Source of the DNA: Gammaproteobacteria bacterium Ga0074134
Lineage (GTDB): Bacteria > Pseudomonadota > Gammaproteobacteria > Ga0077554 > Ga007554
Assembly: GCA_001464965.1 (NCBI GenBank)
Contig: LNEJ01000007.1
Coordinates: 1-42,261 of the forward strand
Direction: 5' to 3'
DNA length: 42,261 bases
The translations under genes and the position numbers were made by a program. The notes beneath the pieces were generated by a model that was given only the letters and a program-made list of their open reading frames with translations, was not told the DNA's origin and did no database searches. The stretch's first letter is position 1; each line of letters starts with the position of its first letter. This document shows, in pieces, positions 22,672-26,876 of the stretch.

Positions 22672-25128
22672 TCAATGCTTCTTGAGCAAATTCACATTGC
22701 ACTCGCCGCAACCGCACCTAAGGGCTTCAGCCTCACCGTGTTCGGGTGTAACGAAAAACGTGGCGTTGCACTTCATGCAGGTGAATGCCTCAACAAGCGC
22801 CTTGAACGCGTTGGCGACGGGTTCGAAGTCATTTCGATGAAGATTGGCCCACTCGTTGAAATGGACCGCGGTATTTACCTGCCATTGCTCGACTTTTGAT
22901 GCCTCAACAGCAGTACCAAATCGGTCCTCCTGCTCGGTGATTGCGGCCAACTTTTCGGTCTGCCCCCATGACTGAGCGGCGGCTTTCCCCACCTTCAGAA
23001 GCTTCTTCATCTTCTCAATTGCATTCGGGAGCAGGTCACCGAGACTGAACTGCGCATCGCCCCGAAATTCGACTTTCGCACGCAGTCCTTGGCATGCCTC
23101 CTTAGAAAAATGTTCTAAGTAATTTCTAAGCAATGCGGCAGCGCCTCGCACGTCGTTCTTTTTGAGCATGTCAGTAAGCTCTTCCCAAACGTCCCGATCA
23201 TTCCACTCGGTTGGACCCAGATCGACGTTCCATGTTCTGAAATGCGTGAATCGCTTAGGCCCGATTAAGCCGACAGTTTTCATGTGCCGGAGCCAGATTT
23301 CATCGTGGGTCGTCAGTAGAAACTGGGTGTTTGGAAATTGCTCGCGGAGCATTTTACTCACCTGCCTGCGGTGCCCAGAATCGACTGACATGAGCACATC
23401 GTCAAGGACTGCGAAAGTGAATGCTTCCCCCGCCAAGTGATTCATCAATGCCAAGTAGAGGCACAATCCCATTCCATCCTGATGTCCCTCGCTGTGGTAA
23501 GCGCCTGGTGGGAAAAATCCACGACCGTAAAAATCGACATCGAAACCCAGCTTACCCGTTGATGGTTTGAGTTGCGCCTGAAATTTCTCCTCGTCATCGT
23601 GATTCACAAGACGATAAAGCTTGCTGAAGGAGGTTTCGACGTTCTTGTATATTGTTTCTAGCGCAGATGTGGTGACGTTCCCATACGTCTCGAAGATAAA
23701 CTGGGAAGCTCCAGCTTTTTGCTCTGCTCCTCTGAGTTTAAGAGATGCTTGACGATAAGCTTCCAGCCTCTCTTGACCAACACTGAGGTAATCGCGAGCA
23801 GCATCTTGTTGAGTCGGCTCGGGTAAGGCAGCGATAGCAGTGTCAAGCTGTACAACGGTAGCATGCACCTGTTCAGATACCTTGCTCGTCGCTACCAATG
23901 CATCGCTGGTTGCACTCAGAGGCAGAAAACTCTTGAGAGCGGTTGAGATATGAGCCAGATCAGCTACGTAACCACTTATCGCGGCGCAGTCAACGGCGGG
24001 CTGAAGCAGCACGCCGTAGCGAGCAGCTGAGGCAGCTGCGGTTCGTACAGCCTCAAGCTCGGTAATGATCGGGGCTAGCTTCTGTTCCAGCTCCTTACGC
24101 TGTTTCGTCGCTGCCGAGTACTGTCCCAGCTTATGGGCCAAGTGATTCCGAAAGTCTTCTGGCTTCCATGGCGTGTCACATACCGGACACACCTTGTCAT
24201 CGAAAGAATTCAACGCATTTCGCACTAGCGCTTCTCTCGACGCGAATTGCAGGAATTGCTCGTTCTCCGAAAGATTGCTAACAGCAGAAGCCACCTTGGC
24301 GCAAGCGGACACAAACTCGGGACTCTGCACGCTGACAAGCTTCTTTTTTAAAGCTTCGAGATCTGCTTTGGCTTGAACCTTCGCAACCTTGCTCGGCTGT
24401 GCGGCTGCGGTGGCAGACACAATCCCATCCTTAATTGAGGTGTTTTCTTCGAGAGCAGGAATTTCCGGAAGGGATAGTACAGTACGCTTTTCATTCGCGG
24501 CCGTTAGGATCGTCGCAGCAGATACCTTGGTCAGGTTCATGGCGCGCTGGAGTGCCGTAGCTGCTTCATCTCTTGTGCTCTTCAGCAGCTTTACGTCCCT
24601 ATTGCTAGCGTTTGCAATTTTCTGGAAAAAAACTCGAAGCGCTTCAATCTCATCGAGACGGAGTAGTTCCTGGACCTCCTTTGCCCGCTTACCCGGTTCG
24701 GCGAGAACGTACCGAATTAGTTCTCGGCGCGAGAGTGCAAACTCAGGATGCATGGCAACCTTAGCAAACACCGCTCGAATATCTGGATCGTTTGGTGTCA
24801 TCGTGAGGTTTTTCGCGTCTTTTACACTGCGAAGAATCGTCGCATCCTTCTTGAGCGATAGGATGTGGACGGTCAGTGAGACATAGGCATTCTCTGGCTT
24901 GTTGCGGCTGTCCACATGCGGGCCATGCTCTTTTACAGATAACCCGCCAGTACCGGCCCCAGACAGACGCGAGATGCTGCCCGTCAATGCGAATTCAAGC
25001 GCATCTACTATGCCGCTCTTCCCGGTGCCGTTCGGACCGCAAATGGCAAAGTTTTCTCCATCGAGATCCAGTGTGAGGTCACGGATGCCCCGAAAATCTC
25101 GAATGGATATGGACTTGACGCGGATCAC
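22672..25128 (-). CDS. Rad50/SMC-like AAA ATPase with zinc hook and C-terminal zinc ribbon
   Basis: An 818-residue protein. The N-terminus, SISIRDFRGIRDLTLDLDGENF, leads to the Walker A GPNGTGKS (31-38), as in SbcC/RecF/Rad50 ATPases. Helical, coiled-coil-like regions surround a CPVC hook at Cys314/Cys317. The C-terminal half has GRGFFPPGAYHSEGHQDGMGLCLYLAL (signature region), the Walker B FAVLDDVLMSVD (Asp575-576), and LLTTHDEIW. A further domain follows, with a zinc ribbon CMKCN...CGCGEC near the end. It has no nuclease domain of its own. The start is a GTG overlapping the 73-residue gene stop (GTGA), with GGAGGA upstream. It is the last gene of a three-gene operon. It resembles the ATPases of ABC-type defence modules but matches no named system I can identify. 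Confidence 0.85.
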   Translation of the reverse strand: MIRVKSISIRDFRGIRDLTLDLDGENFAICGPNGTGKSGIVDALEFALTGSISRLSGAGTGGLSVKEHGPHVDSRNKPENAYVSLTVHILSLKKDATILRSVKDAKNLTMTPNDPDIRAVFAKVAMHPEFALSRRELIRYVLAEPGKRAKEVQELLRLDEIEALRVFFQKIANASNRDVKLLKSTRDEAATALQRAMNLTKVSAATILTAANEKRTVLSLPEIPALEENTSIKDGIVSATAAAQPSKVAKVQAKADLEALKKKLVSVQSPEFVSACAKVASAVSNLSENEQFLQFASREALVRNALNSFDDKVCPVCDTPWKPEDFRNHLAHKLGQYSAATKQRKELEQKLAPIITELEAVRTAAASAARYGVLLQPAVDCAAISGYVADLAHISTALKSFLPLSATSDALVATSKVSEQVHATVVQLDTAIAALPEPTQQDAARDYLSVGQERLEAYRQASLKLRGAEQKAGASQFIFETYGNVTTSALETIYKNVETSFSKLYRLVNHDDEEKFQAQLKPSTGKLGFDVDFYGRGFFPPGAYHSEGHQDGMGLCLYLALMNHLAGEAFTFAVLDDVLMSVDSGHRRQVSKMLREQFPNTQFLLTTHDEIWLRHMKTVGLIGPKRFTHFRTWNVDLGPTEWNDRDVWEELTDMLKKNDVRGAAALLRNYLEHFSKEACQGLRAKVEFRGDAQFSLGDLLPNAIEKMKKLLKVGKAAAQSWGQTEKLAAITEQEDRFGTAVEASKVEQWQVNTAVHFNEWANLHRNDFEPVANAFKALVEAFTCMKCNATFFVTPEHGEAEALRCGCGECNVNLLKKH

Positions 25129-25346
25129 AGGGGTTCCTCCCCAAACATGGCTGTCCGCAGTGTAGCTTCCGTAGGTTTTCCGTCAAAGATCGCTACTTTG
25201 AGGTTTTGAGCAATCTCGCGGTAGTCCTCATGCCCCCCGAGGACAGATAAAAACTCGCCGATTATCAGATGTGCAACGCTTCCGCTCCCTTGAACAATAG
25301 GGGCGTCACCGTTCGGATCCGTGGAGTCTATCTTTTCCATGCTCAT
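25125..25346 (-). CDS. Small unknown protein, middle gene of the SMC-like operon
   Basis: A 73-residue protein with no recognised family. It reads GSVAHLIIGEFLSVLGGHEDYREIAQNLK, then FDGKPTEATLRTAMFGEEPL. It is acidic and mostly helical-looking with no signal or membrane segment. It overlaps the upstream gene by 4 bp and the ATPase start by 4 bp, so the three proteins are made together. This suggests a stoichiometric partner, adaptor or regulator of the ATPase. It could correspond to the small middle component of ABC three-component systems, but the sequence alone does not show that. Confidence 0.6.
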   Translation of the reverse strand: MSMEKIDSTDPNGDAPIVQGSGSVAHLIIGEFLSVLGGHEDYREIAQNLKVAIFDGKPTEATLRTAMFGEEPL

Positions 25347-25990
25347 TCTTGTCCCGTTGCTCTTGGACCGGCACTTGATTTTTTTGGGTCAGGTTGAAGC
25401 TTGCTCTTCTTGTGCGCCACCTTCTTTGCGTCGACCTTCGGAGCTTCTTCCTTCGCCGGTTCCTTCTTGGCGGTCTCGGGGAAAGTACCGAGATCCTTTG
25501 CGCCTATCTCAATCGCACGCTCTCGCCATGCAGCCCGATAGCGCTCTTGTACTTTGTTGCCAAGACGCGAAACTACATGGTGCGGATTGAGGACAAGCAC
25601 CCAATGAAAGTCGTGGTCGGTGCTAGGTTTGTAGTCGATGAAGCCGTGTTTCTTGAGGTGCCGCATGCGCTTACGCCAAGTGTCGACGGCGCGCTCGCCG
25701 GTGAAGCCGGCTTCGAAAGCCATCTGCTTCTCGCTGGCTAGCGCGACGATGCCGGGGGTGAACAAGCGACACCATATCGTGAGGTAGGTCATGCCTGCTG
25801 GCTGCCCTTTTGTCAGTGTGTCGATGATGTTCATGAGATACGCCATCGTTCGCGGCATCGTGGTGAAGCCGCCCGCCTTCTTGCGATCCCAAAAATGTTC
25901 TTCGGGCACATCGGGCCAGAGTTCGGCTCGCATTGCCAATGCGCGCTCTTCCATCTTGTTTGCCCGCGCCTTCGTCTGTTTCAAATTCAA
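25343..25990 (-). CDS. Winged-helix-like protein with basic tail, first gene of the SMC-like operon
   Basis: A 215-residue protein without a named family. Residues about 40-130 (GGFTTMPRTMAYLMNIIDTL, YLTIWCRLFTPGIVALASEKQMAFEAGFTGERAVDTW by position, RMRHLKKHGFIDYKP) look like a helix-turn-helix/winged-helix domain of the type seen in plasmid and island hypothetical proteins. HDFHWVLVLNPHHVV would be the wing strand. The last 45 residues are very rich in Lys, Ala, Pro and Glu and probably disordered and nucleic-acid-binding. The TTG start at 25988-25990 has AAGGAG six bases before it. It could be the sensor/DNA-binding component or the operon regulator. Confidence 0.6.
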   Translation of the reverse strand: MNLKQTKARANKMEERALAMRAELWPDVPEEHFWDRKKAGGFTTMPRTMAYLMNIIDTLTKGQPAGMTYLTIWCRLFTPGIVALASEKQMAFEAGFTGERAVDTWRKRMRHLKKHGFIDYKPSTDHDFHWVLVLNPHHVVSRLGNKVQERYRAAWRERAIEIGAKDLGTFPETAKKEPAKEEAPKVDAKKVAHKKSKLQPDPKKSSAGPRATGQE

Positions 25991-26029
25991 TACAATCTCC
26001 TTCGCTGTTCCTTAGGGGAATGAAAGGGA

Positions 26030-26123
26030 CTCGGGACCGGGTTTTGGATGCCCGTGTCGCTGCCGATGCTCGTCAGCCAAGTGGGATTTGGAGGCCCCGC
26101 TTGATGGTTTGAACGGTCCCGAG
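26030..26123. promoter_or_regulatory. Long-range inverted repeat in the SMC-like operon leader
   Basis: CTCGGGACCG (26030-26039) and its perfect complement CGGTCCCGAG (26114-26123) enclose 74 bp, located 40-133 bp before the operon start. In RNA they would form a closing stem for a folded leader; in DNA they could be paired operator sites. No known riboswitch is recognised. Confidence 0.35.
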
Positions 26124-26423
26124 CTTGCGAACAGTATGGAGGATCAGGCGTATCTTGGGCAACGATTACTCCCGATCGATGTGGCCTAATCTTCGCGCTT
26201 GCACACTGCCCTTCTATTGTTCGTATTCATCAATCTATCACATCCGGGAATAGTCAGTTGAGCTATTTCACTCAGACACCGCACGAAAAAGTCCGTCTTC
26301 TGGCCGTTTCAGTTGCGGCGTTAGTACTCTTTGTACTCTTGTACTCTGTGTATTCATTGTGCTCACTGTGCTTCCGGGGTTTGTAAGGGGGCTGGGGTAC
26401 AGTTTGGTGGTCAAACTCAACAA

Positions 26424-26691
26424 CCACCGGCTAAAGCCGGTGGGTTGGGGTTGCGGACTGAAAGTCCGGATACGCGTCGACTGAACGACGCGTCTTACAC
26501 TCCCTTCTCCCGCCTGCGGGAGAAGGGCCGGGGATGAGGGGCTATGCGATGCAAAAAATGTAATCTCTGCTCAACGCCCCTCACCCTACCCTCTCCCGCA
26601 GGCGGGAGAGGGATTTTGTACGACATTTACACTCAACGACACAGGCATACACTGATAACTTCGCAGCTGAAGCTGACCGGCTAAAGCCGGT
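26424..26691. repeat. Cluster of REP/BIME-like hairpins
   Basis: CCACCGGCTAAAGCCGGTGG (26424-26443) is a hairpin and recurs as ACCGGCTAAAGCCGGT at 26676-26691. Between them are CGGACTGAAAGTCCG, ACGCGTCG / CGACGCGT around ACTGAA, and two opposed REP-like units: 26502-26541 (CCCTTCTCCCGCCTGCGGGA... then GGATGAGGGG) and 26577-26613 (CCCCTCACCCTACCCTCTCC...). The two units are near inverted copies of each other, as in BIMEs. They do not code for protein. Confidence 0.65.
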
Positions 26692-26876
26692 GGTTTAAAC
26701 CTTCTGATGGACAATTAATCAGTGAGCCAATAAAAAATCGCTGGGTGCCACCACACCGCCCAGTATGGGAGATACTCAACGAGTTTTACCATATGTTCTG
26801 AGCTGAATGTCCGCATCGGGTCGATTCCAGCCATTCAGATGATACCGCCTGTCAGATCAAGTGCTGACTACCACAC

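Follow-up and report, generated by a model that had tools for sequence, protein, structure and literature searches.

The closest described systems are those of RloC and PrrC, proteins of about 800 residues in which a Rad50-like ABC ATPase with an SEG signature is followed by a helical domain carrying an invariant R-x3-E...H; some of their loci are linked to defence genes. RloC also has a CXXC zinc hook between its coiled coils, and mutations in the hook reportedly alter its activity. Its active site was determined as Arg-X3-Glu-X36-52-His, every residue of which is essential (PMC2610378). The RloC/PrrC and DUF4145 (PF13643) domains are both HEPN (PMC3710099). In Lamassu/ABC-3C systems (LmuABC, DdmABC), a Rad50-like ATPase with a hook is combined with a small middle gene and a separate effector gene, LmuA. 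The Walker B Glu of LmuB is usually replaced by Gln (PMC10586767). PARIS (AriAB) and Septu (PtuAB) pair an ABC ATPase sensor with the nuclease under its control, the product of a separate TOPRIM or HNH gene; PARIS cleaves tRNA. Wadjet consists of JetABC (SMC/kleisin/KITE) and JetD.

The window, i.e. the whole 42,261-nt stretch of Gammaproteobacteria bacterium Ga0074134 DNA that was analysed, contains three reading frames, A, B and C, between the genes of RhlE and an HD-GYP-type protein. The frames and the 4-bp overlaps at A/B and B/C given in the earlier note are real and all lie on the minus strand. Gene A starts with TTG and is preceded by GGAG at 26000-25997. The features are as follows.

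25343-25990, minus strand: gene A, 215 aa; winged-helix-like, with a basic tail; stand-alone relatives on plasmids and a phage; outside the conserved core
25125-25346, minus strand: gene B, 73 aa; small acidic partner, found ahead of C at every locus inspected
22672-25128, minus strand: gene C, 818 aa, GTG start; ABC ATPase, Rad50/SMC-like, that carries a zinc hook and, towards the C-terminus, a HEPN-like domain followed by a zinc ribbon
25015-25038, minus strand: Walker A of C, residues 31-38, GPNGTGKS
24178-24189, minus strand: CPVC zinc hook of C, residues 314-317; C314, P315 and C317 invariant
23467-23496, minus strand: ABC signature region of C, residues 545-554, HSEGHQDGMG
23380-23406, minus strand: Walker B/D-loop of C, residues 575-583, LDDVLMSVD; Asp at the position of the catalytic Glu
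22819-23196, minus strand: HEPN-like domain of C, residues ~645-770; R668, E672 and H756 invariant
22675-22791, minus strand: C-terminal zinc ribbon of C, residues 780-818; C784, C787, C805 and C807
22510-26877, unstranded: segment unmatched at the orthologous site of three congeners, where two other genes are found instead

We consider it probable that B and C constitute a self-contained mobile Rad50-like ABC-HEPN abortive-infection module with B as its obligate partner, the protective action being suggested by analogy with RloC and PrrC.

C was matched by SMC_N (E 2e-17) and AAA_23 (E 3e-15) and otherwise by general ABC models (RecF, SbcC, Rad50) far under the NCBIfam cut-offs. The top PADLOC match for its ABC part was LmuB (6.5e-21, residues 2-617). 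In these HMM searches, put forward as a check in the earlier note, A and B gave no convincing match in the Pfam, NCBIfam, PHROG and PADLOC models. Residues 1-644 of C were predicted as a Rad50-type head and coiled coil (pLDDT 81), and head and hook had a structural match to Rad50 at Z ~25. The CPVC hook and the C-terminal zinc ribbon, both recognised earlier, are present (C314-C317; C784, C787, C805, C807). The C314-P-x-C317 motif is invariant and flanked by predicted long helices, and D576-D577 were invariant in the 32 sequences compared. Chance was excluded for C, since its full-length relatives with ~25-57% identity retain the invariant motifs.

Beyond residue 644, C continues with some 125 residues that form a helical domain, and then with the ribbon. 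Past residue 640, the only residues invariant in 32/32 sequences were W648, A663, R668, E672, H756 and the four ribbon cysteines. Judged by its sequence, the R-x3-E...H of C is the anticodon-nuclease triad of PrrC/RloC, and both R-x3-E and SH were retained in ten AAA_13 proteins in the alignment made here. The profile of the domain matched 18 DUF4145 domains with 90-92% probability, and with 3% when the alignment was reversed. With HHalign, the R-x3-E helix alone was in register with DUF4145, and for the second half, N-x3-H, the alignment was made by eye; on this basis AAALLR..LQ ... GNEAVH of DUF4145 parallels AAALLRNYLE ... VNTAVH of C, with the AAALLRxxL(E/Q) helix and the N-x3-H pattern in common. 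In contrast to DUF4145, the domain of C is joined to an SMC-like ATPase, contains a long insertion ahead of the His and has no Arg before the position of GN. The Rx4-6H motif was not found in C, in which a hydrophobic residue or Trp stands where Arg is expected (position 751); C retains N752-x3-H756, and its Arg is situated at 668, like in RloC/PrrC. The domain HMM also retrieved L179 (E 2.4e-7) and L175 (E 5.8e-6), the domains of which carry the classical RNx5H as RNAVGAH and RNEVGAH, respectively.

The domain was predicted as a helical bundle with a poorly modelled H756-bearing loop. In the fold search, the HEPN chains 2hsb (Z 5.6) and 2q00 (Z 5.1) did not score above unrelated helical bundles. 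Foldseek found no significant hit for the domain in the PDB or viral libraries, and the PDB sequence search with the domain profile resulted in no match. Nor did the PDB sequence search give a solved relative covering the nuclease end of RloC/PrrC. A direct relation of the C-terminal domain alone to the RloC C-terminal domains was considered and rejected because the match was too weak to count. The most likely effector of C is a putative HEPN RNase domain at residues ~645-770. The earlier note had suggested that the effector could be hidden in the zinc-ribbon C-terminal domain; its placement in the C-terminal part was retained, but the ribbon itself gave way to the candidate HEPN domain just before it. 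A few copies, haloarchaeal and other, are without this domain: a haloarchaeal relative (L180:4995-6968) ends after the ATPase, at 658 codons, and an Arthrobacter copy (L041) stops at residue 669, which indicates that the C-terminal domain of C can be lost.

An explanation in which C is an SMC/Rad50-like defence sensor with a non-catalytic helical domain, used for docking or RNA binding, and relies on the ribbon or B to bring in a nuclease from another gene, as in Lamassu or SbcCD, is unlikely. It is in line with LmuB as the top-scoring PADLOC model for the ABC part, with the lack of the Arg of classical RNxxxxH at position 751 and with the existence of non-catalytic HEPN domains (PMC3710099). 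However, what the 32 sequences have kept is the set of RloC/PrrC active-site residues and not a generic surface, and B-C is accompanied by no constant third gene in the loci inspected.

The ATPase, the R-x3-E...H, the length, the SEG signature and the linkage of some loci to defence genes are common to C and RloC/PrrC, and the hook between coiled coils was found in C as in RloC. RloC and PrrC belong to the AAA_13 family, whereas C had no match to PF13166 at E up to 1; in the profile-profile comparison of the whole protein with AAA_13, the 98% match extended over no more than the C-lobe and the R-x3-E helix. The E672-H756 spacing of C is 83 compared with 36-52 in RloC. C would work like RloC but differs from it in two of the features compared, the AAA_13 match and the triad spacing. 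In addition, the domain of C is followed by a zinc ribbon, and the small partner B is always there.

B-C is neither Lamassu/ABC-3C, Wadjet nor PARIS. The ATPase with a hook and the small middle gene are shared with Lamassu/ABC-3C, but the candidate effector is fused to the ATPase in C, Walker B of C has Asp and not the Gln of LmuB, and B matched no middle-component model. No LmuA-type effector gene was constant at the B-C loci, and A had no PADLOC match. The ABC ATPase sensor recalls PARIS and Septu, but no TOPRIM or HNH gene lies beside B-C. Jet profiles were absent from the best 25 of the 97 PADLOC matches of C and from the results of A and B, and C has a hook instead of the hinge of Wadjet. 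The feature comparisons agreed with the earlier statement that none of Lamassu, ABC-3C and Wadjet matches the locus. The Lamassu/ABC-3C-like division of labour proposed along with it was not supported.

The conserved unit is B-C alone, not A-B-C. B was directly upstream of C in 38/38 loci inspected, the window included and two pairs being near-duplicates; these loci span Proteobacteria, Actinobacteria, Chloroflexi and haloarchaea. No constant third gene was detected beside B-C in the loci inspected, and relatives of A were found at no other B-C locus, so the three-gene layout first taken for the system was reduced to a two-gene core. The B-like ORFs were about 50-90 aa long, and the B/C junction was mostly a 4-bp overlap, with a longer overlap in a few loci and a 3-bp gap in one. 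Most B proteins were acidic (net charge -2 to -19), and two had a charge of +1. B-like ORFs were also present ahead of two sister ATPases, L176 and L177, the latter of which matched PF13166 above its cut-off. The correlation of B and C distances (r 0.85) was discarded as extra support because it reflects merely linked genes travelling together.

The small first gene, translationally coupled to a putative RNase, and the many plasmid-borne copies would also fit a toxin-antitoxin-like maintenance module of plasmids or islands, with C as RNase toxin, B as antitoxin and defence as incidental. This reading is quite improbable: a simple toxin would have no need of the Rad50-like sensor head with its hook, chromosomal copies close to defence genes are numerous, and B also precedes L176 and L177, which have different C-terminal domains.

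B-C has spread horizontally, with patchy transfer between phyla. The tblastn search with C resulted in 39 plasmid records (20 at coverage of at least 80%, best identity 56%) and zero phage records; a B-C pair from Rhizobium has 56% identity. The genome scan added about 20 full-length relatives from Pseudomonadota, Bacteroidota, Nitrospirota, Myxococcota, Verrucomicrobiota, Actinomycetota and Chloroflexota, and from a Methanophagales archaeon. In the C tree, which departs from the organism tree, the nearest partner of this archaeon is a Dehalococcoidia bacterium, and rows from Bacteroidota and Actinomycetota are placed among Alphaproteobacteria. C was present in 2/398 genomes of the phylum, this genome counted, and was not found in 7 other genomes of the order. 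In three congeners, the rhlE to HD-GYP interval held two unrelated genes of ~400 and ~850 aa at the A-B-C site (L172:4562-8326, L173:4603-8394, L174:2289-6104), which makes the locus variable. A RecF/SbcC/Rad50-type ATPase for DNA repair or chromosome maintenance, to which the general matches of C would point, is contradicted by this patchy distribution, by the inter-phylum transfer in the C tree and by a normal recN in the same window, and is highly improbable.

The neighbours of B-C included BREX pglX/pglZ (L012), AbiEii, DarT/NADAR, TIR, restriction-modification and PD-Lambda-5 genes, and at one locus (L209) DUF499/DUF1156 genes were nearby. The PADLOC scan of the neighbours gave 83 families compared with 34 in 20 arbitrary chromosomal stretches, a qualitative comparison in which many query loci are plasmids and the control is chromosomal. 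The 113 control proteins were matched mainly by generic models, e.g. GajB/UvrD, RtcR/PspF and mad3. Since several B-C copies sit among ordinary genes, the enrichment of defence neighbours is an impression with no measured rate. Distribution, tree and neighbours bear out a mobile, patchy SMC/Rad50-like module often near defence genes; as for enrichment in defence islands, defence-type neighbours at many loci speak for it and the copies among ordinary genes against it.

In the Halorhabdus tiamatea pHTIA locus (L012:2024-10667), B-C is flanked by pglX and pglZ within a BREX-5 locus, and this interval is a typical insertion place for accessory systems. Membership of B-C in BREX was considered due to long upstream neighbours (~1,150-1,300 aa) resembling PglX, and was rejected: except in L012, with the order pglX-B-C-pglZ, the scanned upstream neighbours were ribonucleotide reductase, a TPR protein or unrecognised, and the gene downstream in L024 was TraG.

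The patchy spread, the anti-virus neighbours and the RNase-like tail of a sensor-type ATPase indicate that B-C probably acts as a suicide-type defence against viruses or plasmids. As an ABC-HEPN module, C would dimerize via its ATPase heads and zinc hook in the fashion of Rad50 and may sense abnormal DNA made by the invader, such as ends or replication intermediates, or that a nearby restriction system has failed. Movement of the heads, powered by ATP, would then free the C-terminal HEPN RNase domain, which may cut RNA needed for translation, tRNA being the likeliest target by analogy with PrrC/RloC, and growth would be arrested before the invader spreads. B would be made just ahead of C through translational coupling, and probably silences C or aids its DNA sensing. 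If true, the known systems would gain a two-gene ABC-HEPN one, with R668/E672/H756 as candidate active site and B as small obligate partner, and the coupling of a Rad50-type DNA sensor to RNA cleavage, also at issue for RloC and PrrC, would be revealed. B-C was absent from the PADLOC release used; an earlier description of the clade is possible.

Gene A was found alongside B-C in this genome only, and no relatives of A were found next to any other C. Its relatives (~41-45% identity) are encoded by 4-5 kb ColE1-type enterobacterial plasmids, rhizobial and Pseudomonas plasmids and Burkholderia phage Musica. The third-position GC of A is 0.65 compared with 0.55 for B and C. Due to this difference and the absence of A from other B-C loci, A is read as a module from another mobile gene family that would have been joined upstream in this lineage. 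The PDB sequence search with the profile of A gave no match; from its sequence, a winged-helix protein is plausible, and A is probably a regulator. The genes after its relatives differ: in one genome a PIN domain follows with a 4-bp overlap, and on the small plasmids proteins of no recognised family follow. A behaves as if it were an exchangeable first gene. More tentatively, and with less confidence than in the module itself, B-C may found a two-gene ABC-HEPN immunity class of bacteria and archaea in which B gates a Rad50-like RNase, A being an exchangeable regulator set by mobile elements before toxin-like genes (PIN, unfamiliar proteins, B-C).

At L151, L015, L016, L017 and L018, relatives of A were followed, across a short gap or overlap, by a PIN domain, unfamiliar proteins or a small membrane-type peptide. 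Upstream of A, at 26000-26870, about 0.85 kb is without a clear gene and contains short inverted-repeat-like stretches, namely ccggctttagccgg twice and ctcccgc..gcgggag.
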